Positions 11,867 through 35,160 of a stretch of 64,000 bases of DNA are shown here, in pieces; position 1 is the stretch's first letter, and the number at the start of each line of letters is the position of its first letter. The DNA comes from Actinocorallia herbida (GTDB taxonomy: Bacteria; Actinomycetota; Actinomycetes; Streptosporangiales; Streptosporangiaceae). The notes under the pieces are model-generated. The model did not search any database. It saw nothing but the letters and a program-made list of their open reading frames with translations, and was not told the DNA's origin. The DNA is taken from the NCBI RefSeq assembly GCF_003751225.1, contig NZ_RJKE01000001.1, forward strand, positions 5,332,001 to 5,396,000, read 5' to 3'. Made by a program: the position numbers and the translations under genes.

Positions 11867-11874
11867 CTTGCCGC

Positions 11875-14256: not shown

Positions 14257-15912
14257 TCAGCCGTTTCCGGCAGGAACCGCGCGGGTTCTGCCGAGGGCGC
14301 GGAGGCGGTGCATGACGGTGCCGTCGGCGAAGGTGTCGTGGAGGGTGAGATAGAGAGCGTAGAGGTCGTCGTAGGCGGTGACGCGAGCTGGGTCGGGGGT
14401 GTAGACGGCGGTTTCGCGGCGGCCCATGGCGGCCGACGCCGTCACGATGTCGCCGTATTCGCCCGCGGCGACGGCGGCGTGGATGGCGGAGCCGAGGGCG
14501 GGGCCTTGGGTGGAGCCGATGACGGACAGGGGGCGGTTGAGGATGTCGGCGTAGGTCTGCATGAGGAAGGTGTTCTTGGTCAGGCCGCCGGCGATGATGA
14601 ACTCTTCGACGGGGACGCCTGATTTTTCGAAGGTCTCGACGATGTTGCGGGCGCCGAAGGCGGTGGCCTCGATGAGGGCGCGGTAGACGTCCTCGGGGCG
14701 GGTGGCCAGCGTCTGGCCGACGATCAGGCCCGAGAGGGTGTGGTCGACCAGGGTCGAGCGGTTGCCGTTGTGCCAGTCCAAAGCGACCAGGCCGTGCTGG
14801 CCGACCTCTTGGGCGGCGGCCAGCCTCGTCAGGTGCTCGTGCAGGCTGATCCCTGCCTCCTCGGCCGCCCGGTGGTAGGAGGCGGGGACCTGGTTGTCGA
14901 GGTACCAGGCGAAGATGTCGCCCACACCGGACTGGCCCGCCTCGTAGCCCCACAGGCCGGGCACGATCCCGTCGGCGACGACGCCGCACATGCCGGGCAC
15001 TTCGGCGAGCCGGTCCGAGGGCATGATGTGGCAGGTCGAGGTGCCCATGATCGCGACCATCTGGCCGGGGCGGACCGCGTCCGCCGCGGCGGCGGTGACG
15101 TGCGCGTCGACGTTCCCGACCGCGACGGCGATGCCCTCGGGCAGGCCCGTCCAGGCCGCGGCCTCGACGCTCAGCCTCCCGGCGAGGCCGCCGAGGGGCG
15201 AGAGCTCGTTGGCGAGCTTGTCGGGGAAGGACGCAAAACCCGGGTTCAGCGCGGACAGGAACTCCGGCGACGGGTAGCCGTCCTGGTAGATGCCCTTGTA
15301 TCCGGCGGTGCAGACATTGCGGGTCTCGACGCCGGTGAGCCGCCAGATGATCCAGTCGGCGGCCTCGATCCACCGGTCGGCGCGCGCGTAAAGGTCGGGG
15401 TCTTCTTCCAGGAGCTGGAGGCCCTTGGCGAACTGCCATTCGGAGGAGATCTTGCCGCCGTAGCGGGGCAGCCAGGATTCGCCGCGTTCGGCCGCGAGCG
15501 AGTTGATCCGGTCGGCGTGCTCCTGGGCGGCGTGGTGCTTCCACAGCTTCGGCCACGCGTGCGGACGACCCGGGAACAGATCGGACAGCGGGGTGCCGTC
15601 CTCGGTCGTCGGCAGCACGGTGCAGGCCGTGAAGTCCGTGCCGATCCCGACGATGTCCGCAGGGTCGACCCCGGAGGCGGCGACGGCCTCGGGCACCGCG
15701 GTGCGCAGCACCTCGAGCCAGTCGGCGGGCGACTGGAGCGCCCAGTCCGGGCCGAGCGCGGTGCCGTCGGGCAGGGCCCGGTCCATGACGGCGTGCGCGT
15801 ACTCGTGCACGGCCGAGGCGATCTCGGCGCCGTCGGCGACGCGGACGACGACGGCCCGGCCGGACAGGGTGCCGTAGTCGACGCCGACGGTGTAACGGGG
15901 CTGGGTGCTCAT
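14257..15912 (-). CDS. araB: L-ribulokinase
   Basis: 551 residues, normal for ribulokinases. FGGY carbohydrate-kinase fold with the N-terminal phosphate-1 motif YTVGVDYGTLSGRAVVV. GIGTDFTACTVLP and the GTSTCHIM segment are typical of AraB rather than xylulokinase or glycerol kinase. The C-terminal adenosine motif is seen as EFIIAGGLTKN. It phosphorylates L-ribulose to L-ribulose 5-phosphate. It is the last gene of the long minus-strand cassette, 78 bases after araA, and that gap contains a stable hairpin. It acts with araA and araD to send L-arabinose to D-xylulose 5-phosphate. Confidence 0.95.
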   Translation of the reverse strand: MSTQPRYTVGVDYGTLSGRAVVVRVADGAEIASAVHEYAHAVMDRALPDGTALGPDWALQSPADWLEVLRTAVPEAVAASGVDPADIVGIGTDFTACTVLPTTEDGTPLSDLFPGRPHAWPKLWKHHAAQEHADRINSLAAERGESWLPRYGGKISSEWQFAKGLQLLEEDPDLYARADRWIEAADWIIWRLTGVETRNVCTAGYKGIYQDGYPSPEFLSALNPGFASFPDKLANELSPLGGLAGRLSVEAAAWTGLPEGIAVAVGNVDAHVTAAAADAVRPGQMVAIMGTSTCHIMPSDRLAEVPGMCGVVADGIVPGLWGYEAGQSGVGDIFAWYLDNQVPASYHRAAEEAGISLHEHLTRLAAAQEVGQHGLVALDWHNGNRSTLVDHTLSGLIVGQTLATRPEDVYRALIEATAFGARNIVETFEKSGVPVEEFIIAGGLTKNTFLMQTYADILNRPLSVIGSTQGPALGSAIHAAVAAGEYGDIVTASAAMGRRETAVYTPDPARVTAYDDLYALYLTLHDTFADGTVMHRLRALGRTRAVPAGNG

Positions 15913-15930
15913 GTGTGTTGTCTCCTGGAA

Positions 15931-15971
15931 CCCCGGGGCGCGCCCTCGGGCACTGAGTGCGCACCCCGGGG
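15931..15971. promoter_or_regulatory. Intercistronic hairpin between araA and araB
   Basis: CCCCGGGG occurs at 15931-15938 and again at 15964-15971. Being self-complementary, the two copies can pair, with a further GCGC/GCGC extension inside. This is the only sizeable gap in the ara part of the cassette. A partial terminator or an RNA-processing/stability element that lowers araB relative to araA is possible. Confidence 0.4.
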
Positions 15972-15990
15972 AGTATCGAGGCCGTTAAGG

Positions 15991-17481
15991 TCAGAAGCCC
16001 TGGGCCAGGCGGTGGTAGGCCTGGTTCCAGCGGATCTCCTGCGCGAAGCGCCGCGGGGTGGTGTCGGCACCGATGGTGAGCAGCTCCACGCCCAACATCT
16101 CCGACATGTCGCACAGAACCTCGGAATCGAGCGCTGCCGTCAGCACCGTGTGGTGCGGGCCGCCGGCGGTCAGCCACGCCTCGGTGGACGTGCGCAGGTT
16201 CGGCAGCGGCTTCCACACCGCGCGCGCCACCGGCAGCGCCGGAAGCGGCTCCGGCGGCGCGACGACCTCGATCTCATTGGCGACGAGCCGGAACCTGTCC
16301 CCCATGTCGGCCATGCCGAGGACGACGGCGGGGCCGGGGTCCGCGTCGAACACCAGCCGGACCGGGTCCTCCCGGCCGCCGATGCCCAGCGGATGGATCT
16401 CCAGCGACGGCCTCGCCGACGCGATGCTCGGGCAGACCTCCAGCATGTGCGCGCCCAGGATCAGCTCCGAGCCCGGCACCAGGTTGTAGGTGTAGTCCTC
16501 CATGAAGGAGGTGCCCCCGGCCAGGCCGGTGGCCGCGGTCTTCAGAGTGCGCAGCAGCGTCGCGGTCTTCCAATCGCCCTCACCGCCGAACCCGTACCCG
16601 TCGGCCATCAAACGCTGCACGGCCAGGCCAGGAAGCTGGCGAAGGCCGCCCAAGTCCTCGAAGTTCGTCGTGAACGCCCCGAAGCCGCCCGCCTGGAGGA
16701 AGCTCCTGAGCCCGAGCTCGATCCGCGCCCCGTAGCGCAGCGACGCGTGCCGCTCACCACCCGCCCGCAGCTCGGGCGCCACGTCGTACAGGTCCTCGTA
16801 CTCGGCGACCAGGGTCGTGATCTCCCCCTCGAGGACCGCGTCGACGACGCCCACGAGGTCGTTGACCCCGTAGGTGTTCACCGAGACCCCCAGCTTGAGC
16901 TGCGCCTCGACCTTGTCGCCCTCGGTCACCGCCACGTCGCGCATGTTGTCACCGAAGCGCGCCAGCCGCAGAGTGCGCAGCTCCGCCACGCCCAGCGCCG
17001 CCCGCGCCCACGCCTCCACCCGCGACGCCACAACGGGGTCGGACACATGCCCCGCCACCGTCTTGCGCGGCACGTTCAACCGCGCCTGCACGAACCCGAA
17101 CTCCCGGTCACCGTGCGCGGCCTGGTTCAGGTTCATGAAGTCCATGTCGATCGTGCCCCACGGCAGCTCGACATTCGCCTGCGTGTGCAGATGCAGGAAC
17201 GGCTTCGCCAAAGCGTCCAGGCCCGAGATCCACATCTTCGCCGGGGAGAACGTGTGCATCCACGCCACCAGACCCACACAGGAGTCGTCGGCGTTCGCCT
17301 CCAGGAACACCCGCCGGATCGCCGCCGCGTCCGTCAGCACCGGCAGCCACCTGAGCCGCGCCGGCAGAGACCCGCCCAGCCGGTCGGCGATCTCCTTGGA
17401 CTGGTCGGCGACCTGCCGGAGCGTGTCCTCCCCGTACAGGCCCTGGCTCCCGGTCAGGAACCAGATCTCGCGCTCAGCCAT
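15991..17481 (-). CDS. araA: L-arabinose isomerase
   Basis: 496 residues from ATG 17481, which follows GGAGGCCG; the open frame extends further 5' but only into araD. The N-terminus [20 protein letters not shown] is diagnostic. Also typical are [36 protein letters not shown] and the metal-site glutamates in [11 protein letters not shown] and SFMEDYTY. It converts L-arabinose to L-ribulose in the cytoplasm with Mn2+. It lies between araD (26 bases upstream) and araB, in the order araD-araA-araB. Confidence 0.96.
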
Positions 17482-17507
17482 CACGGCCTCCTTCTCTTTC
17501 GGGGCCG

Positions 17508-18155
17508 TCACTGGCCGTAGACGTTCTGGTAGCGGTCGTACAGCGAGTCCACGTCGGGCTGCGGGATCGCCAGCGGCTCCCCCAGCTGGCGGGACAAGTG
17601 CACCGTCCGGGCCACGTCCTCGCACATCACCGCCGCCTTCACCGCCTCCCGCGCCGACCCGCCGATCGTGAAGACCCCGTGGTTGCGCAGCAGCACCGCC
17701 GGGCTGCGATGCCCCTCCAGGGTCTGCACGATCGCCCTGCCGATGTCCTCACCACCGATCAGCGCGAACGGGCCCACCGGGATCTCCCCGCCGAACTCGT
17801 CCGCCATCGCCGTCAGCACACACGGGATCGCCTCATCCCGCGCCGCCCACGCCGTCGCATACGTCGAATGCGTGTGCACCACACCGCCCACATCCGCACG
17901 ATGCCGGTACACGTAGGCATGCGCGAACACGTCCGACGACGGCTTCAGGCCCGCGGCGACCGGATGCCCGTCCAGGTCGCACAGCACCATCGACTCCGGC
18001 GTGAGCCGCTCGTACGGCACGCCGCTCGGTTTGATCAGGAAGCGGTCGTCGCCGACCCGGGCCGAGACGTTGCCCGCGGTCCACGCGACCAGCGCGGACT
18101 CGACGAGGACCTGGTGCAGCGCCGCGAGTTCCGTGCGCGATGCCGAGTCGTTCAT
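17508..18155 (-). CDS. araD: L-ribulose-5-phosphate 4-epimerase
   Basis: 215 residues, of class II aldolase fold. Substrate-phosphate and zinc-site motifs are present: [12 protein letters not shown] (~residues 24-35), [17 protein letters not shown], and the metal-binding [19 protein letters not shown] with three histidines. The acidic catalytic region [11 protein letters not shown] follows. It epimerises L-ribulose 5-phosphate to D-xylulose 5-phosphate. The gene is 23 bases downstream of the GH1-like gene and 26 bases upstream of araA, so it is clearly part of the same polycistron. Confidence 0.94.
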
Positions 18156-18178
18156 GGGGGTTCCTTGGGTAGAGAGGA

Positions 18179-19162
18179 TCAGGGATGGCCGCGGCGGGCG
18201 ACGTCGCCGAGCCAGTAGAGGCTCGGCCTGGGCCTGGGTGCGCCGGTCCTGCGGTCGAAGGCGATCAGCCCGCAGTCGCCGGGGTGGCCTTCGCCGTGTT
18301 CGGGCGCCGTCCGGTGCAGATATCCGCGGACGTCGGCGCCGTCCGCGACGGCGCCGAGCAGCCCGCGCAAGGCCCGGGAGGTCACGGTGACCCGCAGGGC
18401 GTCATCGGCCGTGGGGACACCGTCGTCGGTGATGAGGATCGGCCGGCCGGTCACCTCGGCCGTGTGCCGCACGACGGCGTCGAGCGTCTCGGACCGCCCG
18501 GGGCCGTCCGCCCCGCCGGACCGAGGACGCGAGACCGGCCTGCCGTGGGCCGGTCCGGAGGCGTAGGCGACCCCCACGAAGTCGTCGCCGCGCGCGTGTT
18601 CGAGCCACCGGTCCGCGAGGCCGTCCGGCTCCGCGGGAACACCGCGCGGTCCGCCGGGCCGCCGGACGGCCACGGTCCAGCCGACGGCGGCGCGCGTGCG
18701 CTCCCGCAGGCTCACCGCGGCCGCATGGTGGGCCTCGGCGATCCTCTCGGGGAGGTCGCCATGCCGTCTTGCGTTCGCCGGCGCCCGCATGGTGCAGATC
18801 CAGCGGACGCCGTCGAGGATCCCGGCGGCCTCGCGGGCGTAGCGCGCGAAGCGACCGGCCGCCGACGGCGCCGACCAGCCGCCCAGGTCGGTGAACCATC
18901 GCGGTGCGGCCCGGTCGTGCAGGGTGACGACGGGTGCGAGCCCGTACTCCAGCGCCTTGCCGATCGCCGTGCGGTACCGGGCGAGCGCGTCCGCGCGGAA
19001 GCGGCCCGGTTCGGGTTCGACGCGGTCCCAGGACAGGACGAGCCCGCAGGCGTTCAGTCCCGCTCCGGCGAGGAGCCAGAGGTCCTCGGGGTCGCCGGAC
19101 GCCGGATCCGAGACGGTGGCCGCGCCCCACAGGAATCCCGGCGGCGCCTGGGTCAGGACCAT
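18179..19162 (-). CDS. GH1-like protein lacking both catalytic glutamates
   Basis: 327 residues, clearly shorter than active GH1 enzymes (~450). GH1 landmarks are recognisable in order: PPGFLWGAATVSD (usual FLWGAATAS), GLVLSWDRVEPEPGRF (W-R--P), APVVTLHDRAAPRWF (usual TLHHFTNP), VRWICTMRAPANA where TFNEPN is expected, and PILITDDGVPTAD where ITENG is expected. Both the acid/base Glu (NEP) and the nucleophile Glu (TENG) are therefore replaced. The ending CGLIAFDRRTGAPRPRPS is typical. It may be a non-catalytic sugar-binding protein or an enzyme with a changed mechanism. Its position inside the operon and the intact frame argue that it is maintained. Confidence 0.75.
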   Translation of the reverse strand: MVLTQAPPGFLWGAATVSDPASGDPEDLWLLAGAGLNACGLVLSWDRVEPEPGRFRADALARYRTAIGKALEYGLAPVVTLHDRAAPRWFTDLGGWSAPSAAGRFARYAREAAGILDGVRWICTMRAPANARRHGDLPERIAEAHHAAAVSLRERTRAAVGWTVAVRRPGGPRGVPAEPDGLADRWLEHARGDDFVGVAYASGPAHGRPVSRPRSGGADGPGRSETLDAVVRHTAEVTGRPILITDDGVPTADDALRVTVTSRALRGLLGAVADGADVRGYLHRTAPEHGEGHPGDCGLIAFDRRTGAPRPRPSLYWLGDVARRGHP

Positions 19163-19192
19163 GCGCCGGCCCCTTCGCGGGAGGATCCGTTC

Positions 19193-21958
19193 TCATCCAC
19201 GGCCGCTCCCGAGGTCCGCGAAGGCGGCCTCCACGTCGTGGAGGATCGGCTCGGCTCCGGGGAGCCTCTGCAGCGCGTCCCTGAGCCTCGCGTTCTGCGG
19301 CGCGGAGCCGAAGCCGATGCCGACGGCTTCGGCGATCTCCGGCATCCTGGCCACGATCGCGTCGGTGACCAGCTTCATCGCGCCGGGCCGGTCCGCCACC
19401 TCCCCGAGGGTGCTGTCCAGGGTGAGCGGCGACCGCTCGGCGGCCTGGTCGGCGAACGGGACGGTCCAGCGGTGGACGCCCGAGCCGACCGTGTGCTCGG
19501 TGCCGTCGGGCAGGCCCACCTCGGCCGAGGTGTTGGGCGAGACCGTCACCTCGACGGAGAGCCACTCGCCGCTGATCGCCCAGCGGCAGGCGGCGGGACC
19601 GTAGGGGGTGTGCAGGCGCGCGGAGGCGTGGGTGAGGCCGCCGCCCGGCCGGGGGGCCACGCGCAGTCGGCGGTATCCGGGCTCGGCGGGGGCCAGGCCG
19701 GCGACGGTCCTGTGCAGCCAGTCGGCGACCGCGCCGAACGCGTAGTGGTTGAAGGACGTCATGCCGCTTGCGTTGACGGTCCCGTCGGGCAGGAGGCTGT
19801 CCCAGCGCTCCCAGATCGTCGTCGCGCCCTGGGTGACCGGGTACAGCCACGACGGGCGCTCCTGCTGCAGGAGCAGCCGGTAGGCGGAGTCGAGGAAGCC
19901 GGTCTCGGCGAGGGCGTCGCAGATCAGCGGGGTTCCGACGAAGCCCGTCGCGATCCGGTGGCCGCCGCCCCGCACCAGGTCGGCAAGGCGCCGGCCCGCG
20001 TGCCTCCGCTGCTCCTCCCCCGACAGCAGCCCGAACCGCAGCGCCAGCGCGTAGGCGGTCTGGGAGTCCGACAGCAGGCGGCCGGAAGCGGTGGTGTACT
20101 CGTCCTGGAACGCCCGGCGGATCCGCGCGGCCAGCGTCCCGTAGTGCGCGGCCTCCTCGGTCCGGCCGAGCAGTCGCGCGGTACCGGCCACCAGGTCCGC
20201 CGAGTGCGCGAAGTAGGCGGTCGCGACGATCTCGGGGTAGGTCCTGGCCGCGTCGGCACGCCCGGGTGGCGCCGCCGGGTCCAGCCAGTCGCCGAACTGG
20301 AATCCCGAATCCCACAGCAGGCCTTCGCCCGCCAGGCCCGCCACATGGTCCACCCAGGCGCGCATGCCGGGGTACTGCGCCTCCAGGACGCCGAGGTCGC
20401 CGTACCGCTGGTAGAGCGTCCAGGGAACGATCACCGCCGCGTCCCCCCAGGCCGCCGCGGCGGTCGGCACGTTCACGACGAAGGGGACGACGGACGGCAC
20501 CGCGCCGTCCGGGGCCTGCTCGGCCGCCAGGTCGGCGAGCCAGGAGCGCAGGAATCCCGCGCTGTCGTACAGGAAGGACGCGGTCGGCGCGAAGACCTGG
20601 ATGTCGCCGGTCCAGCCCAGGCGCTCGTCACGCTGAGGGCAGTCGGTGGGCACGTCGAGGAAGTTGCCGCGCATCCCCCAGACCGTGTTCTCGTGCAGCC
20701 GCTCGACGAGCGGGTCGGAGCAGCCGAACCAGCCGGTGCGCTCCAGGTCGGAGTGGCACACCAGGGCGACGGCTCCGGTCACCGGACCGGTGACCTCGGC
20801 GTACCTGAAGCCGTGGAAGGTGAAGCGCGGCTCCCATTCCTCGATCCCGCCGCCGCGCAGGACATAGGTGTCGGTCGCCTCCGCCGTGCGCAGCGGCTCC
20901 ACGCACAGTTCGCCGCCTTGGAGGATCTCGGCGTGGCGGAGCACCGCCTTGTCCCCCGACGCACCGGAGGCGGTGATCCGGAGCCTGCCGACGAGGTTCT
21001 GCCCGAAGTCCAGGATCGTCCTCCCGGAAGGGGAGGTGAGCGTGGCCACGGGCGCGAGGGTCTCGGTGACGCGCACCGGTGGTCCGGTCGGGGCGACCAG
21101 GGTGGCGAGGTCGTGGTCGACGGTCTCGGCGGGCCACCAGGCCGCGTCGTCGAACCCGGGCTCGGACCAGCCTGCGTGCTCCCGCCTCGCGTCGTAGGCC
21201 TCGCCGTCGTACAGGTCGGTGGACAGCAGCGGGCCCGAGGAGGCCCGCCACCGGCCCGCGCCGGTCGTGATCCGGCGGACCGTGCCGTCCCCGTAGGCAA
21301 GTTCGAGCTGTGCCAGCAGCGCGAGCCGGTCGCCGTACAGGGCCCGCTTCCCCTCGTATCCGAGCCGGCCGCGGTACCAACCGTCGCCGAGCACCGCTCC
21401 CAGGCAGTTGGCGCCGTCGCGGACGAGCCCGGTGACGTCGTAGGTCTGGTAGCGCAACCGGTGGTGGTAGCTGGTCCAGCCGGGGGCCAGCACGTGGTCG
21501 CCGACCCGTTCGCCGTTCAGTTCGGCCTCGTAGACCCCCAGGGCCGTCGCGTACAGGCGGGCCGACACCAGGCCGGGGCCGGACGCGAACTCCGTCCGCA
21601 GCAGCGACCCCTCGCCGGGACCGACGAACCGCGCCTCCCAGTCGTCCGCGCCCAGCAGGCCCGCCTCGACCTCCGCGCGCGTCCAGGGCGAGAGATCTCC
21701 GGACGGCCCGGCCACCCGGACCGCGACCTCGACGCGCTCGCGGGAGGCCAGCGGCGCGAACGGCCAGGGCACCAGGACCGAGTCCGACGCCTCCACCCGC
21801 ACCCTCTCGCCGCGCGCCTCCACCTCGTAGGCGGTCTGCATCCAGTCCGGGATGGCGGTCTCGGTGCGCCAGGACAGCCGGGGGCGCGCGGTGCCGATCC
21901 CCAGCGGCTCCCGGACCTGCTCGAACCTCGGCCCGGTCACCTTCGTGGTCACGGCCAT
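19193..21958 (-). CDS. Alpha-L-rhamnosidase (GH78)
   Basis: 921 residues from ATG 21958; the first ~10 bases overlap the 3' end of the preceding gene. Typical GH78 plan: an N-terminal Ig-like domain (PRLSWRT...AYEVEARG), beta-jelly-roll domains with ARLYATALGVYEAELNGERV and LAPGWTSYHHRLRYQTYDVT, and an (alpha/alpha)6 barrel carrying DCPQRDERLGWTGDIQVF, whose Asp/Glu residues form the catalytic pocket. It hydrolyses terminal alpha-L-rhamnosides. No signal peptide is visible, so it would act in the cytoplasm on imported glycosides. Its neighbours on both sides are other glycosidases of the cassette. Confidence 0.92.
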   Translation of the reverse strand: MAVTTKVTGPRFEQVREPLGIGTARPRLSWRTETAIPDWMQTAYEVEARGERVRVEASDSVLVPWPFAPLASRERVEVAVRVAGPSGDLSPWTRAEVEAGLLGADDWEARFVGPGEGSLLRTEFASGPGLVSARLYATALGVYEAELNGERVGDHVLAPGWTSYHHRLRYQTYDVTGLVRDGANCLGAVLGDGWYRGRLGYEGKRALYGDRLALLAQLELAYGDGTVRRITTGAGRWRASSGPLLSTDLYDGEAYDARREHAGWSEPGFDDAAWWPAETVDHDLATLVAPTGPPVRVTETLAPVATLTSPSGRTILDFGQNLVGRLRITASGASGDKAVLRHAEILQGGELCVEPLRTAEATDTYVLRGGGIEEWEPRFTFHGFRYAEVTGPVTGAVALVCHSDLERTGWFGCSDPLVERLHENTVWGMRGNFLDVPTDCPQRDERLGWTGDIQVFAPTASFLYDSAGFLRSWLADLAAEQAPDGAVPSVVPFVVNVPTAAAAWGDAAVIVPWTLYQRYGDLGVLEAQYPGMRAWVDHVAGLAGEGLLWDSGFQFGDWLDPAAPPGRADAARTYPEIVATAYFAHSADLVAGTARLLGRTEEAAHYGTLAARIRRAFQDEYTTASGRLLSDSQTAYALALRFGLLSGEEQRRHAGRRLADLVRGGGHRIATGFVGTPLICDALAETGFLDSAYRLLLQQERPSWLYPVTQGATTIWERWDSLLPDGTVNASGMTSFNHYAFGAVADWLHRTVAGLAPAEPGYRRLRVAPRPGGGLTHASARLHTPYGPAACRWAISGEWLSVEVTVSPNTSAEVGLPDGTEHTVGSGVHRWTVPFADQAAERSPLTLDSTLGEVADRPGAMKLVTDAIVARMPEIAEAVGIGFGSAPQNARLRDALQRLPGAEPILHDVEAAFADLGSGRG

Positions 21959-24057
21959 GGCGTGAACCCTTCGTGGCGGACGGTCCAGGTGCCGTCCTTG
22001 GGGAAGCCGGGGCTCGGGGTCTCCGTGCCGTCCCAGCCCGCGGCCATGAGGGAGACGGCGGACAGGAGGGCTCCGTTGGAGGGGAGGTAGACGGGCAGGA
22101 GGCTGCCTATCTGGGGGGTGTGGCCGGTGGGCAGGTACCGGTTCTTGGCGCGGTCGGCAAGGAGCGCGTCGACGGCCAGGTCCGGGCGGCCGACGCGGGC
22201 GGCGGTCATGGCCATGACGGGGAAGTCCCAGCCCCAGGCGGTGTCCCACAGCCAGTCGTCGCGGACGTCGAGCAGGGTCGCCTCCATGACGGCCGGGTCG
22301 ACCAGGGGCGTGGCGGGCACGACGCCGAGCGCGCACAGCAGCGACGGGTGGTCGTCGCGCTTCAGGTAGGGCTCGGTCGCGATCGCCGTGTAGACGCCTT
22401 CTCGCTGGTGGGGCTTCACCAAGCCGTCCTGGACGCGCCGCCAGTGGTCGTCGCGGTCCTTGCCGAGGCGTTCGCGCCAGAGCTGGGCGATCTCCAGGCC
22501 CCACCACCAGTAGGCGAGTTCGAAGGCGGGGTCCTCGGTCGTCTTGGCGTCGTAGAACTCCTGGGCGGGCAGCAGCGGCGCGGGCAGGTGCCAGACTCCG
22601 TCGCGCTCCTCTGCGAAGGAGGCCATGAACAGCGCGGTCTCCTCGACCAGTTCGGCGAAGCGGACGACCAGCCGTTCCCGCTCCGTCCCGCCGGAGGCTC
22701 GGTGGAGCAGCTCCAGGAGGTAGAGGGGGTGGGGCTGCTGCCAGATGAGCAGCGCCCCGATGTCGCTCGGGCTCTCCCTGCCGTCCGGGCCGACGTGCTT
22801 GGGCCAGCGGGCGCCGGCGTAGTGCTGCCTGCGGGCGGTGGCGCGGGCTGAGTCCAGGATGGACAGGTACCAGTCCATGCTGCGTTCGAGGAGTTCCGGG
22901 CGGCCCCAGACGGCGAAATGCGCGGCGTGCCACCAGTGCATCTCCAGGTGGAACTTGCCCTGCCAGGAGTTGGTGATCAGCCCGGTCTCCTGCGGCGGGT
23001 TCGTGCCGGCGCAGTTCACCTTGGTGAGGTACTGCGACAGCACCACCCGGCGCTCCAGCTCGCCGGCCCGCGGGTCGGTGCTGCCCGCGAAGTCGATCGC
23101 CGCGCCCGAGGTCCAGAAGCCGCGCCAGGACGCCTCCGCTGCCGCCCTGATCCCGGCGAAGCCCGCACGGCCGAGGTCGGCGCCATCACCCGGCCCGAAC
23201 GACGCGACGAGCTCGAGCACGGAAGCGGAGGCGGTCACCGCGAACTCGTGCGGCATGCCGGAAGGCTCGACGGTCCCCGACGACCGGTCCAGGCGCACCG
23301 TGTACTCGGTGTCGTCCAGGACGCGGCCGAACCGGCAGGCGGCCTCGCCGAGAGGCTCCAGCGTGGTGCGGTGCGTGTCCGGCGAGGACCAGTCCGAGGT
23401 CTGGAAGAAGCCGTCGCTGGCGTAGGGGAACCGGACGGCGACGGCGGCCCTGCCGTCGGCGAGCAGGTCGGACTCCACCCGGAAGGCGACCCTGGCTCGG
23501 TCGGGGTCGGCGACCGTGGTGACGCGCACCTCGCGGCCCGCGTACGTGAAGACGCTCTCCAGGACGCCCGTCCACAGGTCGAGGCGCTGGCGCGGGTTCA
23601 CGAGCGCCGCCGGGTCCTCCTCCGGCGCCGCGCCCGCCTCCGGCCGCAGCACCAGCCCGATCCGGCCCAGGTCCAGCCGCTGGGGATTCAGGTGGAGCCA
23701 CGTCCCGGCGCGGTACTCCGGCGCGACCTCGCCCCCGAACGCCGCGGCCATGTCGAACCTGTCCGGGTACCGCACAGGCCCCCGCGCGGACTCGTAGGTC
23801 GACATCGCGTCGTCGAGCACGAACCCTTCGGGATTGGGCATGGCGTGCCAGCCCCACGTCGCCATCGTCGCGGTGTTCACCGCCAGGCGCCGCTCCGCCT
23901 GCGCGGCGGCCTGGTCGTGGAAGGCGAGGAAGGTCTGCATCCCGGTGATATCGGCGGTATAGGCGAAGTCGCCGTTGCCGACCGTCAGGACGTGCGCGGG
24001 ATCGGGCGCGGTCAGCTCGACGGTGTGGCGGCGGACCACGGCCTCTCGGTCGATCAT
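21949..24057 (-). CDS. Six-hairpin (alpha/alpha)6 glycosidase-like protein
   Basis: 702 residues from ATG 24057, which has GGAGAG at good spacing. An ATG at 24108 overlaps the upstream stop (ATGA) and would add 17 residues. The N-terminal beta-sandwich carries HVLTVGNGDFAYTADITGMQ, a signature of a glycosidase-like family near GH65/GH95. The barrel has KFHLEMHWWHAAHFAVWGR and LAYWWWGLEIAQLWRERLG. There is no signal peptide. I recognise the fold type but not the substrate; hydrolysis of an alpha-linked deoxysugar or hexose is possible. The start of the GH78 gene overlaps its 3' end, so translation of the two is coupled. Confidence 0.7.
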   Translation of the reverse strand: MIDREAVVRRHTVELTAPDPAHVLTVGNGDFAYTADITGMQTFLAFHDQAAAQAERRLAVNTATMATWGWHAMPNPEGFVLDDAMSTYESARGPVRYPDRFDMAAAFGGEVAPEYRAGTWLHLNPQRLDLGRIGLVLRPEAGAAPEEDPAALVNPRQRLDLWTGVLESVFTYAGREVRVTTVADPDRARVAFRVESDLLADGRAAVAVRFPYASDGFFQTSDWSSPDTHRTTLEPLGEAACRFGRVLDDTEYTVRLDRSSGTVEPSGMPHEFAVTASASVLELVASFGPGDGADLGRAGFAGIRAAAEASWRGFWTSGAAIDFAGSTDPRAGELERRVVLSQYLTKVNCAGTNPPQETGLITNSWQGKFHLEMHWWHAAHFAVWGRPELLERSMDWYLSILDSARATARRQHYAGARWPKHVGPDGRESPSDIGALLIWQQPHPLYLLELLHRASGGTERERLVVRFAELVEETALFMASFAEERDGVWHLPAPLLPAQEFYDAKTTEDPAFELAYWWWGLEIAQLWRERLGKDRDDHWRRVQDGLVKPHQREGVYTAIATEPYLKRDDHPSLLCALGVVPATPLVDPAVMEATLLDVRDDWLWDTAWGWDFPVMAMTAARVGRPDLAVDALLADRAKNRYLPTGHTPQIGSLLPVYLPSNGALLSAVSLMAAGWDGTETPSPGFPKDGTWTVRHEGFTPWP

Positions 24058-26555: not shown

Positions 26556-26589
26556 GAAAGCGTGACTTCCTTAGATTCTGCGCGCTGCA

Positions 26590-28833: not shown

Positions 28834-29936
28834 CAGTCGTGGTCCTCGATGCGCCATTCGTCGTGCCAGTCGATGCGGGGTGTGTCGCCGTCGAAGCGGA
28901 CGGGGAGCCAGACGTAGTCCGCGATCGAGGTGTCGGGATCCATGAAGGCGGCTCGCGCCTTGGCCTGCTCCTCGCTCACGCCGGGGCCGGGATCCGCCGG
29001 GGCCTGGGCCGGGGCTTCGGCGGGTCCGTCGATCGGAGCCGGCGCCGCCGACAGGCTCTCCAGGACGCGGGCGCAGATCTCGACCGGGACCTCGGGCAGC
29101 CACCGGTCGGCCAGCGCTATGTAGAGGTCCTTCTTGTGGGGGTGCTTGAAGACCGAGGAGATCTGGGACCGGTAGGAGGTGCCGGTCCCGTCACCCGGGT
29201 GCGGGTCGCCCAGCACGGTCCAGGGGCCGTGGTAGGTGTCGGCGACCGCGACCTCGCTCGGGTTGGGGAAGTACCCCGAGGTGCCCGAGGTGAACAGATA
29301 GTGCTTGGCGCCGCGGCGGAAGTAGGCGGGGGCCTCGCGGACGAACGGCGGGCGGGACCGCGGGAGGTGGGTGGAGTAGTAGCCGGTCACGTCGGTGTGG
29401 TCCTCGGTGAGGTCGGCGCAGATGAGCTCGCTGTGGACGCGCTCGAAGTAGTAGTAGCCCTTGCCGTCGGTCGGATCGACGACGAGGTCGAAGTCGCCGG
29501 CGCTCATCCCGAGCGGGCGCAGGCCCGTGCGGACGATCTTGTACGGCCCCTCGATCGCGTCGGCGACCAGCACGGTGGATTCCTGGATCTCGCCCATGAT
29601 CTTGATCCAGCACACGAACCTCCCGGTGCGCCGGTCCTGGACGATGTGCGGCCGGTCGACCATCCGGGCCGGGTGCAGGGGGCTCGCGGGGTCGTCCGGC
29701 TCCGGCGGGATGATCAGCCCGCGGTCCTCCCAGTTGTACAGGTCCCGGGACGCGTACAGGCGGATGCCCCAGTGCCAGATGCCGCTGCCGGGAAGGGTCT
29801 TCTCCTTGTTCTCCCCGTACCAGTAGAAGGTGCCGTCGAGATACAGGATCGACCCGCCGTGGGCCTGGATCCGCTCTCCTTTGGTGTCCAGCCAGACCTG
29901 GCCGGGGGTGATGCTCGTGCGGAGCGTCTCGCTCAC
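28833..29936 (-). CDS. GH43-family glycosidase (arabinosidase/xylosidase/galactosidase type)
   Basis: 367 residues, a five-bladed beta-propeller pattern. The first blade reads PGQVWLDTKGERIQAHGGSI, then LYLDGTFYWYGENKE. The expected acidic residues appear as Asp in DTKGERIQAHGG, Asp in MSAGDFDLVVDPTDG, and Glu in PFVREAPAYFRRG. A Pro/Ala-rich linker (residues ~300-325) separates the last portion. Such GH43 proteins act on arabinan, arabinogalactan or xylan side chains; subfamily and linkage are not resolved. No signal peptide. Its start overlaps the end of the ABC ATPase gene by four bases (ATGA). Confidence 0.82.
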   Translation of the reverse strand: MSETLRTSITPGQVWLDTKGERIQAHGGSILYLDGTFYWYGENKEKTLPGSGIWHWGIRLYASRDLYNWEDRGLIIPPEPDDPASPLHPARMVDRPHIVQDRRTGRFVCWIKIMGEIQESTVLVADAIEGPYKIVRTGLRPLGMSAGDFDLVVDPTDGKGYYYFERVHSELICADLTEDHTDVTGYYSTHLPRSRPPFVREAPAYFRRGAKHYLFTSGTSGYFPNPSEVAVADTYHGPWTVLGDPHPGDGTGTSYRSQISSVFKHPHKKDLYIALADRWLPEVPVEICARVLESLSAAPAPIDGPAEAPAQAPADPGPGVSEEQAKARAAFMDPDTSIADYVWLPVRFDGDTPRIDWHDEWRIEDHD

Positions 29937-30790
29937 GTGCTGCTTCCTTCGTTCGCTGGTGAACCGGCCTCGGCCAGGCGGCGCCGCTCGGCGCGGCGCT
30001 TGCCCTGCTCCACCGGGTCGGCGACCGGCGAGGCCAGGACGAGGCGGCGGGTGTAGGGGTGCTCCGGCGCTGAGGTGACCTGCGGGGCGGGCCCGGTCTC
30101 CACCAGGTCACCGCGGTACAGGACGGCCACGCGGTGGCTGATGTGGCGGACCACGGCCAGGTCGTGCGAGATGAACAGGTAGGCCACCCCCGTACGGCGC
30201 TGGATGTCGATGAGGAGGTCCAGCACGCGGGCCTGGGTCGACAGGTCGAGCGCGGAGACGGGCTCGTCGCAGACGATCAGCCGGGGCTCGGGGGCCAGCG
30301 CCCGCGCGATGGCCACGCGCTGGCGCTGGCCGCCGCTGAACTCCCGGGGCAGCCGCTCGGCGGCGTCGGCGGGCAGCCCGACCTGGTCGAGCAGGTCGCC
30401 GACCCTCCTGCGGGCGTCGCTCGGGCGCGTCCCCTGGACGACGAGCGGCTCGCTCAGGATGTCGCCGACCGTCAGCGAGGGATTCAGCGAGGTGTAGGGA
30501 TCCTGGAAGACGACCTGAAGGTCGCGGGCCAGGGAGCGCCGTTCCTTGGCGGGGAGCCGGGTGATGTCCCGGCCGCCGAAGACGATGCGGCCGCCGCTGG
30601 GCCTGGCCAGCCCGAGCAGGGCCCGGCCGATCGTCGTCTTTCCCGAGCCGGACTCGCCGACGAGACCGAGCGTCTCGCCCTGCGCCACGGTCAGGGAGAC
30701 CCCGTGCAGGATCTCCACCGGACGGGCCCGGAAGCCCTGGCCGGGATAGGCGAGCCGCAGGTCCTGCACTTCGAGCAGAGGCGTGGTCAT
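29933..30790 (-). CDS. Oligopeptide/oligosaccharide-type ABC importer, ATP-binding subunit (DppF/OppF class)
   Basis: 285 residues from ATG 30790 (ATGA overlap with the previous gene). Walker A: GLVGESGSGKTTIGRALLG. The Q-loop region is VVFQDPYTSLNPSLTVGD. ABC signature: FSGGQRQRVAIARAL. Walker B: RLIVCDEPVSALDLS. H-loop: LFISHDLAVVRH. The C-terminal oligopeptide-transporter extension HPYTRRLVLASPV is present. It pairs with the ATPase half of the fused protein encoded just upstream to power uptake by the SBP_bac_5 system. Confidence 0.93.
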   Translation of the reverse strand: MTTPLLEVQDLRLAYPGQGFRARPVEILHGVSLTVAQGETLGLVGESGSGKTTIGRALLGLARPSGGRIVFGGRDITRLPAKERRSLARDLQVVFQDPYTSLNPSLTVGDILSEPLVVQGTRPSDARRRVGDLLDQVGLPADAAERLPREFSGGQRQRVAIARALAPEPRLIVCDEPVSALDLSTQARVLDLLIDIQRRTGVAYLFISHDLAVVRHISHRVAVLYRGDLVETGPAPQVTSAPEHPYTRRLVLASPVADPVEQGKRRAERRRLAEAGSPANEGSST

Positions 30791-32616
30791 CGGGTCTCCT
30801 TCCCCGTGCCGCCGGCCACCGGGGCGGCCGGGACCGCCGCGGGGGGCGGGTCGGTCCGCACGGTCTCCTCGTCCAGGACCGAGTCCAGGAGCAGCTTCGT
30901 GTAGGGGTGCCGGGCCCGGTGGAAGATCTCCATGGCCGTCCCCGTCTCGACGACCTGTCCTTCGCGCATGACGGCGATGCGGTCGCACAGGTCGGCGACC
31001 ACGCCGAAGTTGTGGGTGACCATCAGCACCGCCATGCCCATCTCCTCCTGCAGGTCCCGCAGCAGGTCGAGGATCTCGGCCTGCACGGTGACGTCGAGCG
31101 CCGTCGTCGGCTCGTCGGCGACCAGCAGGACGGGGCGGCAGGCCACGGCACCCGCGATGAGCACCCGCTGCGCCATGCCGCCGGAGATCTCGTGCGGGTG
31201 GCTGCGGAACGTGCGCTCCGGGTCGGGGATGCCGACCCGCGCGAGAAGCGCCAGAACCCGCTCGCGGGCCTCCTGCCGCGAGATCCCGCTCGCCGCGCGC
31301 AGCCCTTCGACGAGCTGTGACCCGACCGTGGCGGAGGGGTCGAGGTTGGACATGGGTTCCTGCGGGACGTAGGCGATGGTCTTGCCGCGCAACCCGCGCA
31401 GCTCCCGTTCGCCCAGCCCGACCAGCTCGCGCCCGTTCAGGCGGATCGAGCCCCGGGTGACGACCGCCTCCGGAGGCAGCACGCCCAGGACCGCGAACGC
31501 CGTCTGGGTCTTGCCCGAGCCCGACTCTCCGACCAGCCCGAGCGTCTCCCCGGTCTCCAGCCGCAGGTCCACCCCGCTGACCACTTCCTTGAGCTCCCCC
31601 GACGGCGTCGGGTAAGCGATCGCCAGGTCCCGCACGGTGAGCAGCGCAGCCGGCGCGTCCTCTCCCGCCGCATCGTCTCCCGCCTGCGCGGGGGCCGCCT
31701 TGGGCAGCGCGTTCTTCGCGGGCTTGGGGGTGGCGCCTTCGAGGGTGTCGCGCAGCGCGTTGCCGAACAGGACGAGCGAGGCGGTCATGGTGCCGAGCAC
31801 CAGGCTGGGCCAGAGGATCTGCAAGGGGGCGATGTACAGGTTCTGGAAGCCTTCGGCGGCCATGGACCCGAAGCTGGGGGTACTGGCCGGTCCGACGCCC
31901 AGGAAGGCCAGGCCCGCCTGGACGCCGATGGACGAACCGCACAGGAACGCCGCCGCGACGATCACGGGGCCGCGCACCGCGGACAGCACGTGGCGGGCCA
32001 GGATGCGCAGGTCGGTCAGCCCGGACACCCGGGCCGCGTCGACGAACAGCTCGTTCTTCACCCCGACGACCTGGTTGCGCACGATCCGGTAGATGCCGGG
32101 CGACAGCAGCACACCGAAGATGGCCATGGTGACGCGGAAGTCGCCGCCCGTCAGCGGCATGAGGACGATGAGCAGCAGCAGCCCGGGGAACGTCATGATG
32201 AGGCTGAACGTCCACTCGGTCGCCGAGCGCGCCCGGTCGTAGTAGCCGCCGACCAGCCCGGCGGTCACGCCGACGGCCAGGGCGATGCCGGCGCCGATGA
32301 GCGCGGAGACCACGCTGGTGTTGATGGAGTGCAGCAGCCGCGCCCAGATGTCGCGGCCGCTGTGGTCGCCGCCCAGCGGGTAATCCGGTGTGCCGAATCC
32401 GGCGTCGATGTGGTCGAGGGAGGAGGCGTTCGGACCGTGCGAGGCGAGCACCGGCGCGAGCAGTCCCAGGGCGACGATCAGGAGCACCAGGGTCGCGGTG
32501 GCGACCGCCTGCGGGTCGCGGAGGAGCCTGCGCGCGGCCGAGGCCCGGCGCGCCGGCGGCTGCGCGGCGGAGCCGGCCGCGGCCGCGGATTCCACGCGGG
32601 AGGTGTCGGCGGTCAA
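30787..32616 (-). CDS. Fused ABC importer permease (DppC-like) and ATPase (DppD-like)
   Basis: 609 residues. Residues ~1-295 form a DppC-type permease: a helix near TATLVLLIVALGLLAPVLAS, an EAA-type loop around VDAARVSGLTDLRILARH, and the segment GLAFLGVGPASTPSFG. A charged linker follows (~300-325). Residues ~330-590 form an ATPase: GLVGESGSGKTQTAFAVLG, YVPQEPMSNLDPS, the signature ISGGMAQRVLIAGAV, VLLVADEPTTALDVT, and MVTHNFGVVAD. Fusing inner-membrane and motor domains is seen in some actinobacterial members of this family. It overlaps both neighbouring genes by ATGA, giving strong translational coupling. Confidence 0.92.
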   Translation of the reverse strand: MTADTSRVESAAAAGSAAQPPARRASAARRLLRDPQAVATATLVLLIVALGLLAPVLASHGPNASSLDHIDAGFGTPDYPLGGDHSGRDIWARLLHSINTSVVSALIGAGIALAVGVTAGLVGGYYDRARSATEWTFSLIMTFPGLLLLIVLMPLTGGDFRVTMAIFGVLLSPGIYRIVRNQVVGVKNELFVDAARVSGLTDLRILARHVLSAVRGPVIVAAAFLCGSSIGVQAGLAFLGVGPASTPSFGSMAAEGFQNLYIAPLQILWPSLVLGTMTASLVLFGNALRDTLEGATPKPAKNALPKAAPAQAGDDAAGEDAPAALLTVRDLAIAYPTPSGELKEVVSGVDLRLETGETLGLVGESGSGKTQTAFAVLGVLPPEAVVTRGSIRLNGRELVGLGERELRGLRGKTIAYVPQEPMSNLDPSATVGSQLVEGLRAASGISRQEARERVLALLARVGIPDPERTFRSHPHEISGGMAQRVLIAGAVACRPVLLVADEPTTALDVTVQAEILDLLRDLQEEMGMAVLMVTHNFGVVADLCDRIAVMREGQVVETGTAMEIFHRARHPYTKLLLDSVLDEETVRTDPPPAAVPAAPVAGGTGKETR

Positions 32617-33554
32617 AAGATCCTCGCCTTCGGGTTGAGCCAGCCGTTCGCGAGGTCGACGGCGAGGTTGACGGTGACGACGAGGAGCACGGCGAACAGC
32701 GTGATGCCCATGATCACGGGCACGTCCCCCTGGAGGGAGGCGTCGAAGGCGAAGCTGCCGAAGCCCGGGATCGCGAACACCTTCTCGATGATGAGCGCGC
32801 CGCCCAGCAGCGCGATGAACTCGAACGACAGGACCGTCAGCGCGGGTCCCGCCGCGTTGCGCAGCGCGTGCCTGAGCACCACCGACCGGTGGGAGATCCC
32901 GCGGGTGCGCAGCGTGCGGACGTAGTCCTTGCGCAACTCGCCGATCATGGTCCCGCGCACCTGCGCGGTGAGGCCCGCGACGCTCCCGACCAGCAGCGCG
33001 ACTACCGGGATGGTGATGGTCCGCGCCCAGGCCACCGGGTCCTCGCTCATCGGGGTGAAGCCGGTGGCGGGCAGCAGCTTCGCCTTGATCGCCAGCAGGT
33101 AGACCAGGCCGATCGCGATGAGCAGGTTGGGCACCAGGTGGCCGGTCAGGGAGGCCGCCTGGGTGATCTTGTCGACCGCGCCGCCGCGCGAGGCGGCCAG
33201 GACGCCGAGCGTGATGCTGACGGCGACCGTGAGCAGCAGCGTGACGACGACGATCGACAGGGTCACGCCGAGGTGCTGCCCGACGGTACGGCTGACCGGC
33301 TCTCCCGAGAAGAAGGAGGCGCCCAGGTCGCCGCGGACGGCACCGGACAGCCAGTCGAGGTACTGGACCATCACCGGCCGGTCCAGACCCATGTCGGCTT
33401 TCAGCGCCGCGATCGCCTCCGGCGTCGCGCTGAGACCGATCCGGCTGCCCACGACGTCGTCGAAGGACGGGACCAGCAGAAGGAACGTGATGAGGGTGAC
33501 GAGGACCGCGAGCACCAGTCCGGAGAACAGGCGGCGCAGCACGTAGCGGAGCAT
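32613..33554 (-). CDS. ABC importer permease (DppB-like)
   Basis: 313 residues with six predicted helices. The N-terminus MLRYVLRRLFSGLVLAVLVT and the periplasmic TPEAIAALKADMGLDRPVMV block are typical of DppB/OppB. The EAA loop is DYVRTLRTRGISHRSVVLRH. It forms the heteromeric channel with the permease half of the fused protein. Its stop overlaps the start of the fused gene (ATGA), and it is 61 bases after the solute-binding protein gene. Confidence 0.93.
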   Translation of the reverse strand: MLRYVLRRLFSGLVLAVLVTLITFLLLVPSFDDVVGSRIGLSATPEAIAALKADMGLDRPVMVQYLDWLSGAVRGDLGASFFSGEPVSRTVGQHLGVTLSIVVVTLLLTVAVSITLGVLAASRGGAVDKITQAASLTGHLVPNLLIAIGLVYLLAIKAKLLPATGFTPMSEDPVAWARTITIPVVALLVGSVAGLTAQVRGTMIGELRKDYVRTLRTRGISHRSVVLRHALRNAAGPALTVLSFEFIALLGGALIIEKVFAIPGFGSFAFDASLQGDVPVIMGITLFAVLLVVTVNLAVDLANGWLNPKARIF

Positions 33555-33615
33555 GTGGCTTCCTTCGGGTCTTGCGTGGTCCGGGCGGCCCCGGCCGGGG
33601 CCGCCCGGATCGTGT

Positions 33616-35160
33616 TCAGTCGGAGGTGCCGAAGGACCGGACGGTGATGGCGGCCGAGGAACCGTCGCCGAGGTACTCGACCCCCTTGGCGGTCACCCAG
33701 TTGGTGCCGATGTCCATGACGGGGGCGAACCAGGCCTCCTCCACGAAGAACCGGGTGATCTTCTTGTAGGTCCCGGCGGGGTCCGCCACGGTGTCCGCCT
33801 CGCCGAGCAGCTCGGTGAGCTCGGGGTCGGCGGACTTGAACGGGTTGGTGGGCGTGCCGGGCGTGGTGTAGGTGTCCACCAGCAGCGGGTCGTGGTCGAG
33901 CCCGTAGATGCCGAAGTACATCGGGTACTTCGCCGAGCCCAGCGCGGTGAACTGCTGCTGGATCGGCACCGACTCCCACGTCACCTTGACGCCGATGTCG
34001 GCCAGGCTCTGGGCGATCAAGGGCTCGAGCGGCTTGGTGGTGACGAAGCTCGGCATCGTGACGGCGAAGCCGTCCGCGTACCCGGCCTCGGCCAGCAGCT
34101 TCTTGGCGCCCGCGACGTCGTAGGGGTAGCGCTCGTCCAGCGCGGCGTCGTAGGCGGTGCCCTTCGGGTTGAAGAGCTGGGCGGTGGGCAGCCCGGAGCC
34201 GCGCAGGACGGTCTGGACCAGCTTGGCGCGGTCGAACGCCATGTTGATCGCCTGGCGCACCTTCAGGTCGCCGAGCGGCTTGAGCTTGCTGCCCGCGCGG
34301 TCGGCGAGGAACAGCGTCGCCACCGTGCTCGCCTTGATCTGCTTGAGCCCGAGGCCGGCCGACTTCAGGGCCTCGACCTGGGAGGAGTCGACGGTGCCGG
34401 CGTTGAGCTCGCCGGCGCGCAGCGCGTTGACCACCGCCGCCCGGTCGGGCATGACCCGGACCTGGATCGTGTCGAACGGGTAGAGGTCGGGGTTCCAGTA
34501 GTCCTTGCGCTTCTTCAGCGTGTAGGTCGAGCCGCTGACCGTCGCGGCCTTGTCCAGGATGTAGGGGCCGGAGCTGACGGGGTCCGTCGCGGCGTTCGGC
34601 TGCTTCATCGCCGCCGGGTCGGCGATCACGCTGCTGCTTCCGGCCAGGTACGTGATCAGGGAGTCGTCGGCGGCCTTCAGCTTGAGGACCAGCGTCAGGT
34701 CGTCGGGCGCTTCGACCGCCTTGACCGACGCGAGGTAGGACTGGCTCGGGCCGGGGGTCTCGCGGATCGCGTCCAGGCTCGCCTTGGCGGCCACGGCGTT
34801 CACCGGGGCGCCCGAACTGAACTTCATACCCGAGCGGATCTTGAACGTCAGGGTCTCGCGGTCTTCGGAGTAGGTGTAGGACTCGGCCGCGTTCGGCTGG
34901 ATCCGCCCCTGCTCGTCGGTGTAGAGGAGCGTGTCGTAGAGCGAGGCCCAGACATAGGCGGCCTGCCCTCCGTCGAGCCGCGTCACCTCGAAGGAGCTCG
35001 GGGCGGACTGGATGGCGAGAGCGAGCTTCGTGCTCGCCGATGTGTCCGAAGAATCGGACTCTGCTCCGCCGCACGCCGCCGTGGTGAGCAGCGCCGCCGC
35101 CGCGACGGTGGCGGTGAGGATCCGGGACCGCTGGAAGAGCGGTCTGGCCGAGATGGACAT
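33616..35160 (-). CDS. ABC solute-binding lipoprotein, SBP_bac_5 family
   Basis: 514 residues. The signal peptide has RSR then ILTATVAAAALLTTAAC, giving a lipobox with Cys30. The mature protein has the family-5 pattern: YDTLLYTDEQGRIQPNAAES, LTFKIRSGMKFSSGAPVNA, VRQAINMAFDRAKLVQ, and LLAEAGYADGFAV near the C-terminus. The family includes peptide binders and also experimentally shown oligosaccharide binders (Thermotoga). Here, at the head of a glycosidase-ara operon, a glycoside ligand is the better inference. It is the first gene of the cassette, with the 27-bp operator 55 bases upstream of its start. Confidence 0.92.
   Translation of the reverse strand: MSISARPLFQRSRILTATVAAAALLTTAACGGAESDSSDTSASTKLALAIQSAPSSFEVTRLDGGQAAYVWASLYDTLLYTDEQGRIQPNAAESYTYSEDRETLTFKIRSGMKFSSGAPVNAVAAKASLDAIRETPGPSQSYLASVKAVEAPDDLTLVLKLKAADDSLITYLAGSSSVIADPAAMKQPNAATDPVSSGPYILDKAATVSGSTYTLKKRKDYWNPDLYPFDTIQVRVMPDRAAVVNALRAGELNAGTVDSSQVEALKSAGLGLKQIKASTVATLFLADRAGSKLKPLGDLKVRQAINMAFDRAKLVQTVLRGSGLPTAQLFNPKGTAYDAALDERYPYDVAGAKKLLAEAGYADGFAVTMPSFVTTKPLEPLIAQSLADIGVKVTWESVPIQQQFTALGSAKYPMYFGIYGLDHDPLLVDTYTTPGTPTNPFKSADPELTELLGEADTVADPAGTYKKITRFFVEEAWFAPVMDIGTNWVTAKGVEYLGDGSSAAITVRSFGTSD

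Follow-up and report, generated by a model that had tools for sequence, protein, structure and literature searches.

Described import systems and the locus of Actinocorallia herbida

In bifidobacteria, arabino-oligosaccharides are imported and trimmed under LacI-type control: the AauR, AbfR and BauR regulons combine a local LacI repressor, a predicted importer and arabinosidases, and the arabinose passes to AraA, AraB and AraD (PMC5928203). The RhaR regulons of Actinomycetales, also under LacI-type control, comprise rhiLFG and alpha-L-rhamnosidase genes, that is, an ATP-binding cassette (ABC) transporter and rhamnosidases for rhamnose-containing oligosaccharides (PMC3870299). AbpBs of Blastococcus saxobsidens, an enzyme of 801 amino acids (aa) from glycoside hydrolase (GH) family 2, takes alpha-L-arabinopyranose off ginsenoside Rb2; it is active on p-nitrophenyl-alpha-L-arabinopyranoside and left o-nitrophenyl (oNP)-beta-galactoside uncleaved (PMC9728169). 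The oligopeptide-binding (Opp) fold carries sugars in Thermotoga, tmCBP being an example (PMC3850815). The present work concerns a 13-gene run and its surroundings in a 64,000-nucleotide stretch of the A. herbida chromosome (contig NZ_RJKE01000001.1, positions 5,332,001 to 5,396,000), called the window below; the genome is a single contig of 9.8 Mb. The run encodes an SBP_bac_5-type importer, glycosidase-family proteins and the arabinose enzymes AraD, AraA and AraB. Sequence comparison makes it reasonably likely that this is a LacI-controlled locus for the import and intracellular stripping of a small plant glycoside bearing arabinose and rhamnose.

The bifidobacterial regulons share with this locus the local LacI repressor, but have other transporters and arabinofuranosidases, and their araBDA genes are under a separate regulator, AraQ (PMC5928203). 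The RhaR regulons differ in holding rhamnose genes, not araDAB (PMC3870299). In Sphingobium RC1, six saponin glycosidase candidates carry predicted signal peptides (PMC10653915); a cell that imports such compounds would thus follow another strategy. The bifidobacterial LacI regulons already combine import with trimming inside the cell, and the locus is a variant of that layout; the view of a preliminary description, made from the sequence of the window, that it differs from the usual layout was overstated. Less well understood here are the set of parts, the importer and one uncharacterised enzyme. A literature search returned no paper title naming the locus, which we do not take as a claim that it is unpublished.

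Gene layout and predicted operator

Gene calling placed 13 genes in succession on the minus strand, between 35160 and 14257 (table 1). From the gene of the substrate-binding protein (SBP) to araB, the spacings are 61, -4, -4, -4, -1, 34, -4, -10, 30, 23, 26 and 78 bases, the last being the widest gap. The strand, gaps, overlaps, gene order and names reported in the preliminary description all hold, and Pfam and NCBIfam searches back the names of the proteins, the six-hairpin protein excepted. The importer is encoded by four genes, because a single 609-aa protein combines OppC and OppD. Secretion was approached by scanning residues 1–45 of the proteins as called for hydropathy, in stretches of 12 residues. 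None of the six glycosidase-family proteins exceeds 1.57, whereas the lipoprotein SBP reaches 2.31 and the permease 3.12; by this simple test the six appear to lack signal peptides, as first noted.

The LacI gene is divergent from the SBP gene, and the gap between them carries two overlapping copies of a palindrome. The pattern STAAYNCGNRTTAS has exactly three exact sites in the whole genome, all of them here, and the reversed-pattern control has none; exact sites alone were used. In Actinocorallia populi there are two exact sites (control, none), both in the corresponding cluster: one in the LacI–SBP gap and the other past the last transporter gene and ahead of the GH43 gene. The run is marked by a predicted LacI-type operator confined to the locus. 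Since one site stands upstream of a gene of the major facilitator superfamily (MFS; 36414–37724), this gene is probably in the co-regulated set, and the predicted unit is probably larger than originally described. By synteny, it probably includes 8965–11725 as well.

In Streptomyces lomondensis, a single match to the operator lies upstream of the MFS gene (L031:3907; L and G numbers are our handles for loci and genomes), and two near-matches in tandem, again offset by 13 bases (L031:16760–16788), lie upstream of a gene named by eye as resembling a short-chain dehydrogenase/reductase (SDR). The operators of orthologous regulators in L033, L036 and L037 gave no exact fit to the window pattern and were left uncounted. 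The promoter scan found no sigma-70-like site in 18000–37900 or 8500–18000, and terminator-like sites numbered five against 3.2 expected in the former interval and none against 1.6 in the latter; these results are uninformative.

Table 1. Features of the locus, in window coordinates.
Feature	Position	Strand	Basis or location
Substrate-binding lipoprotein, SBP_bac_5, lipobox-like TAAC	33616–35160	-	Pfam PF00496, 225 bits; N-terminus; closest PDB chain 119 bits
OppB/DppB-type permease	32613–33554	-	PF00528, PF19300
OppC permease–OppD ATPase fusion, 609 aa	30787–32616	-	OppC_N, BPD_transp_1, ABC_tran and oligo_HPY in a single open reading frame
OppF-type ATPase, 285 aa	29933–30790	-	ABC_tran; oligo_HPY below its cut-off
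GH43 near subfamily 24	28833–29936	-	PDB matches 6eug, 6euf, 7bys, 3vsf; residue comparison
GH3 with extra C-terminal domain of about 65 aa	26590–28833	-	Family scans; VSDWG and EGTDRE present
GH2, AbpBs-like, probable alpha-L-arabinopyranosidase	24105–26555	-	59% identity to AbpBs over 813 columns
Uncharacterised (alpha/alpha)6 glycosidase-like (six-hairpin) protein	21949–24108 (start probably 24057)	-	AF2 model; Foldseek GH65/GH95/GH139
GH78 alpha-L-rhamnosidase	19193–21958	-	PF17389, PF08531, PF05592, PF17390; CPQRDERLGWTGD and TIWERWD present
Degenerate GH1-like protein, 327 aa	18179–19162	-	53 bits to GH1; NEP to RAP, TENG to TDDG
araD, L-ribulose-5-phosphate 4-epimerase	17508–18155	-	NF005123, 346 bits (cut-off 251 exceeded)
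araA, L-arabinose isomerase	15991–17481	-	PF02610, PF24856, PF11762
araB, L-ribulokinase	14257–15912	-	TIGR01234, 757 bits (cut-off 583 exceeded)
Divergent LacI-family regulator	35407–36387	+	PF00356, PF13377
Operator-like palindrome 1	35214–35229		LacI–SBP gap
Operator-like palindrome 2, overlapping palindrome 1	35227–35242		LacI–SBP gap
Operator-like palindrome 3	37786–37801		61 bases upstream of the MFS gene
MFS transporter, probably second importer of the regulon	36414–37724	-	PF07690, PF13347; near the set in 11 of 19 close loci
Gfo/Idh/MocA oxidoreductase	10712–11725	-	Family scan; linked by synteny in relatives
GMC-type FAD oxidoreductase, related to FAD glucose/fructose dehydrogenases	8965–10680	-	Family scan; linked by synteny

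Genomic association of the importer subfamily

A search for the fused permease-ATPase covered 296 genomes of the class, A. herbida included, and scored at most four candidates per genome; 37 of the genomes, in 17 of 115 genera, match at 1e-100. Of the 52 matches outside the window, the best 40 were taken with their surroundings, in regions of 13–19.5 kb, and compared with 22 control loci, which hold 24 other SBP_bac_5 genes of the A. herbida genome and exclude both the SBP of the window and the one beside a second fusion transporter. Homologues of the cassette glycosidases occur near the importer relatives in 31 of the 40 loci and in none of the 22 controls at E 1e-8, and in 28 against none at E 1e-20 (Fisher p = 6e-10 and 2e-8, respectively, which overstate the certainty because the loci are related and the controls come from one genome). 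At the stricter threshold the families represented are GH78 (14/40), GH1 (12/40), GH3 (10/40), GH2 (5/40) and GH43 (1/40). This genomic association supports a predicted link between the importer subfamily and glycosides.

The PDB chains nearest to the SBP are too distant to tell a peptide from a sugar ligand, and this comparison was rejected as evidence. Among its 54 PDB matches, a chitin-oligosaccharide binder scores 51 bits and no chain bears the name tmCBP. The second fusion transporter of the genome (L224, genome positions 5695000–5714500) stands beside a GH78 homologue 57 per cent identical to that of the window.

GH2 and the AbpBs neighbourhood

The AbpBs gene was located by searching the family of a Blastococcus genome, in which 36 of 112 genomes have a match. 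It was found in G113, where both published primers match exactly and the gene has 2,406 nucleotides, as published; on the strength of the primers we take G113 to be the genome of B. saxobsidens. The GH2 protein of the window is 59 per cent identical to AbpBs and has the motifs GNEIPE at 395 and GAETF at 514, which we take to contain the acid/base and nucleophile glutamates. It is the best-anchored enzyme of the run and probably, on this likeness, an alpha-L-arabinopyranosidase of the AbpBs type.

The neighbours of AbpBs (L130/L150) include, all within 15 kb, relatives of the GH78 (58%), GH43 (71%) and GH3 (55%) proteins of the window. Unlike the A. herbida locus, however, the 17.5 kb examined hold no ABC importer, six-hairpin gene or araDAB, and they have a second GH78, another GH43-like gene, a Gfo gene and a second GH2. 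In the same family of genomes, locus L151 has on one strand the order SBP, permease, fusion, ATPase, GH3, an unnamed gene, GH2, GH3 and GH78. In Blastococcus sp. URHD0036 (L115), araD and araA are followed, after one intervening gene, by a second AbpBs-like GH2.

GH43: conserved machinery and altered sugar pocket

The closest solved relatives of the GH43 protein are the exo-beta-1,3-galactanases 6eug, 6euf, 7bys and 3vsf. In GH43_24, Glu208 is the acid and Gln263 the base, Glu102 contacts C3/C4 and Tyr126 contacts C4/C6 of the sugar (PMC7939473). The equivalents of Glu208, Gln263, Glu57, Arg103 and Asp158 are kept in all 11 sequences compared, as are the acid/base motifs REAPA and SQ[IV][ST]. 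The differences lie in the pocket: Glu102 is replaced by Asp and Trp229 by Tyr in 11/11 sequences (L150 and L152 have a Trp one place earlier), and at the position of Tyr126 the alignment is gapped, with no Tyr in the 10 sequences for which the stretch was displayed. Three of the eight residues of the GH43_24 minus-1 subsite are thus altered rather than the full set being conserved. By this comparison the protein keeps the GH43_24 machinery with a changed sugar pocket, and we do not file it as a GH43_24 galactanase. Loss of the C6 contacts would suit arabinopyranose.

The other glycosidase-family proteins

Sequence searches with the six-hairpin protein gave no Pfam family at E 0.001 (GH65m came closest, at 0.23), no NCBIfam model at 0.01 and no PDB sequence at E 1. 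Its AlphaFold2 (AF2) model has a pLDDT of 95.4, and the top Foldseek hits are 7fe3 (GH65) and 4ufc (GH95), with a best E of 1.2e-22 and 12–15 per cent identity; GH139 ranks lower. The predicted fold is the (alpha/alpha)6 fold of the GH65/GH95 group, in agreement with the name six-hairpin glycosidase first given from the letters of the sequence. To go by GH65/GH95 motifs, Glu499 is a tentative candidate for a catalytic residue. The family is widespread, with at least 578 relatives retrieved from at least 589 pattern matches. Many relatives begin at the position equivalent to 24057, which is probably the true start; the spacing to the GH2 gene would then be 47 bases rather than -4.

The best NCBIfam match of the GH3 protein is exo-alpha-1,6-L-arabinopyranosidase NF041610 (916 bits, below the cut-off of 1300), from which we assign it no activity, and its closest PDB chains carry beta-glucosidase names. 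Residues 674–742 form a C-terminal domain of about 65 aa, helical by reading and matched by no Pfam model in the scans. The same domain starts an SDR protein at two loci and a GH43 protein at one (L036:8883–10001, L044:13174–14184 and L045:13809–14822) and would be a small shuffling domain. A weak BLAST match in the GH78 tail (E 0.016) was absent from the profile results and was dropped.

The GH78 protein has a complete domain set and the motifs CPQRDERLGWTGD and TIWERWD, which are presumably catalytic. The A. populi GH78 gene shows a frame shift near residue 235 (L020:15098–15110), which reflects a broken gene or else an error in sequencing. In the GH1-like protein both catalytic glutamates are gone; we take these to be the acid/base of NEP (here RAP) and the nucleophile of TENG (here TDDG). 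Among relatives of 386–425 aa, NEP and TEN are kept in 10/10, one having Ser for Gly; the A. populi copy is without the NEP stretch. The GH1-like protein is probably not a working glycosidase, and of the six glycosidase-family proteins first listed, this would leave five glycosidases.

Conservation across relatives

Synteny was examined with fixed identity thresholds in the best 80 of the at least 578 six-hairpin relatives in named genomes, divided into 19 close loci (six-hairpin at least 57% identical) and 61 distant ones. The close loci contain GH2 in 15 cases, MFS in 11, GH43 in eight, GH3 in six, the four ABC genes in four, LacI in three, araA with araD in two, GMC with Gfo in two, and araB and GH78 in one each; in the distant loci every one of these counts is zero. 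The counts are minima, because the flanks were limited to 10 kb and some loci lie on short contigs; the araB gene of A. populi, for example, falls outside its flank and was seen in L021. The core is GH2 and six-hairpin with GH43, GH3 and a transporter. Co-occurrence of the set exceeds chance, its parts recurring jointly in relatives. Catenulispora (L032) has araB, araD and araA in the neighbourhood of GH2, GH3 and six-hairpin genes. Overall, eight of the 100 genomes searched, A. herbida included, have a six-hairpin match.

Proposed pathway and substrate

The substrate that best fits the sequence data would be a small plant glycoside with terminal alpha-L-arabinopyranose and alpha-L-rhamnose, candidates being a saponin, a vicianoside- or rutinoside-like glycoside or a short oligosaccharide. 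Judging from genomic association, the SBP_bac_5 importer would take it in without prior extracellular cleavage, and the MFS protein under the same operator probably imports too. In the cytosol, to go by their families, GH78 would take off rhamnose and the AbpBs-like GH2 alpha-L-arabinopyranose, and GH3, GH43 and the six-hairpin enzyme may take off further residues. AraA, AraB and AraD would convert arabinose to xylulose-5-phosphate by the established pathway. Rhamnose would pass to a RhaEW-type enzyme encoded elsewhere in the genome, where such a protein scores 1057 bits, over the cut-off. Repression would be lifted when the LacI protein binds its ligand.

The idea of intact uptake and dismantling inside the cell, put forward in the preliminary description, is borne out in part: by the importer context, the likeness of GH2 to AbpBs, the unsecreted-looking hydrolases, the araDA or araBDA neighbours in Blastococcus and Catenulispora, and the LacI-type operator. 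Its list of possible substrates can be narrowed towards a small glycoside of arabinose and rhamnose; arabinogalactan has become less likely and GH43 is no plain galactanase. A wider proposal, tentative and on balance doubtful, is that the clade of fused OppC-OppD importers is an actinobacterial family for plant-glycoside uptake and that the locus is a complete intact-uptake pathway for a plant glycoside that bears arabinose and rhamnose, such as a saponin, with a library-unmatched six-hairpin glycosidase and a GH43 reshaped from galactose to, for example, arabinopyranose.

If true, the proposal would give AbpBs-type enzymes, until now described for ginsenoside conversion, a physiological home. 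It would also tie to glycosides an importer subfamily easily annotated as peptide transporters, and provide a small substrate set for finding the activity of the six-hairpin family.

Evidence against the proposal and alternative readings

Several observations weigh against uptake and stripping of a small glycoside. The solved proteins closest to the SBP (at most 119 bits) go by the names of peptide/nickel, AgaA and YliB proteins. Six-hairpin homologues are missing from all 40 importer loci, GH2 and GH43 are found at E 1e-20 in just the five and one mentioned, and nine loci have none of the six glycosidase queries. The 40 loci take in related genomes, two adjacent regions and a paralogue from A. 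herbida itself, the 12 weaker matches were left out, and the controls are all from one genome. Two of these controls hold a fused permease-ATPase by a length-and-motif test and have no glycosidases, so that the fusion alone is no mark of glycoside importers. With one mismatch allowed, the operator pattern is found at 12 places in the genome (the three exact ones included) and its reversed control at seven; moreover, the motif was derived from the LacI–SBP gap, so that independent support comes from the MFS site and the sister-genome sites only. The A. populi run is split by its internal operator and by a second LacI gene before araDAB. The nearest NCBIfam models of GH2 are the beta-galactosidases GalB and GalA (below cut-off), its nearest function-named solved chains are beta-galactosidases, and subfamily GH2_1 is reported to count two alpha-L-arabinopyranosidases against 23 beta-galactosidases (PMC12243196). 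As for conservation, among the 19 close loci GH78 at 60 per cent identity or more is found in A. populi alone and araA with araD in two, the full 13-gene set is confined to two Actinocorallia among the loci compared, and G002, the third genome of the genus, gave no match to the six-hairpin protein.

The kinship of GH43 to exo-beta-1,3-galactanases, with acid Glu and base Gln kept, favours side-chain oligosaccharides of type II arabinogalactan, from arabinogalactan proteins or gum, as the substrate. GH43 would then act on beta-1,3-galactose, GH2 and GH3 on galactose or arabinose, and GH78 on terminal rhamnose; rhamnose and arabinose are both present on arabinogalactan glycans, and a 592-aa GH2, 27 per cent identical to that of the window, stands beside AbpBs. 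Against this stand the altered minus-1 subsite and the oNP-beta-galactoside left uncleaved by the characterised GH2 relative (PMC9728169). The genome furthermore has no PF14587 endo-galactanase (other endo-enzymes lay outside the search) and no second GH43 of the window kind, which makes arabinogalactan less likely; on the whole we regard it as an unlikely substrate. Glycopeptides with hydroxyproline-linked sugars from plant wall proteins, the Opp-type SBP reading the peptide part, would suit an SBP and permeases of the oligopeptide/dipeptide/nickel family, and wall glycoproteins do bear arabinose and galactose. The run, however, has no peptidase gene, and the importer relatives are oftenest beside GH78, GH1 and GH3 genes; this reading is very improbable.

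The locus might also combine two adjoining functions, an unrelated Opp transporter and a set of hydrolases with araDAB fed by the MFS protein. Of the 19 close loci, 11 carry an MFS homologue of at least 45 per cent identity, and eight of these lack the ABC set; the A. populi operator separates transporter from hydrolase genes; and no importer locus has a six-hairpin homologue. But all four loci with the ABC set (Arthrobacter, two; Blastococcus; Actinocorallia) hold GH2 and six-hairpin genes, these loci having been fetched by six-hairpin; the importer test, made without selection on glycosidases, gave 31/40 against 0/22; and the last transporter gene overlaps the GH43 gene by 4 bases. We consider such a division improbable, and a single pathway for a small glycoside with alpha-L-arabinopyranose and rhamnose remains the best fit to these sequence comparisons.

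Neighbouring genes

The GMC and Gfo/Idh/MocA genes lie on the minus strand 2.5 kb past araB. In A. populi their homologues (90% and 79% identity) are within the same-strand run, and in Streptosporangium (L033) they come after the six-hairpin gene (87% and 81%). The two may plausibly carry out a redox step on a released sugar. Two genes alike in sequence, with an MDGFEx start, flank the cassette region on both sides (11875–12306 and 41399–41824); the product of the former matches MarR-type Pfam models, and the latter was likened to it by eye only.

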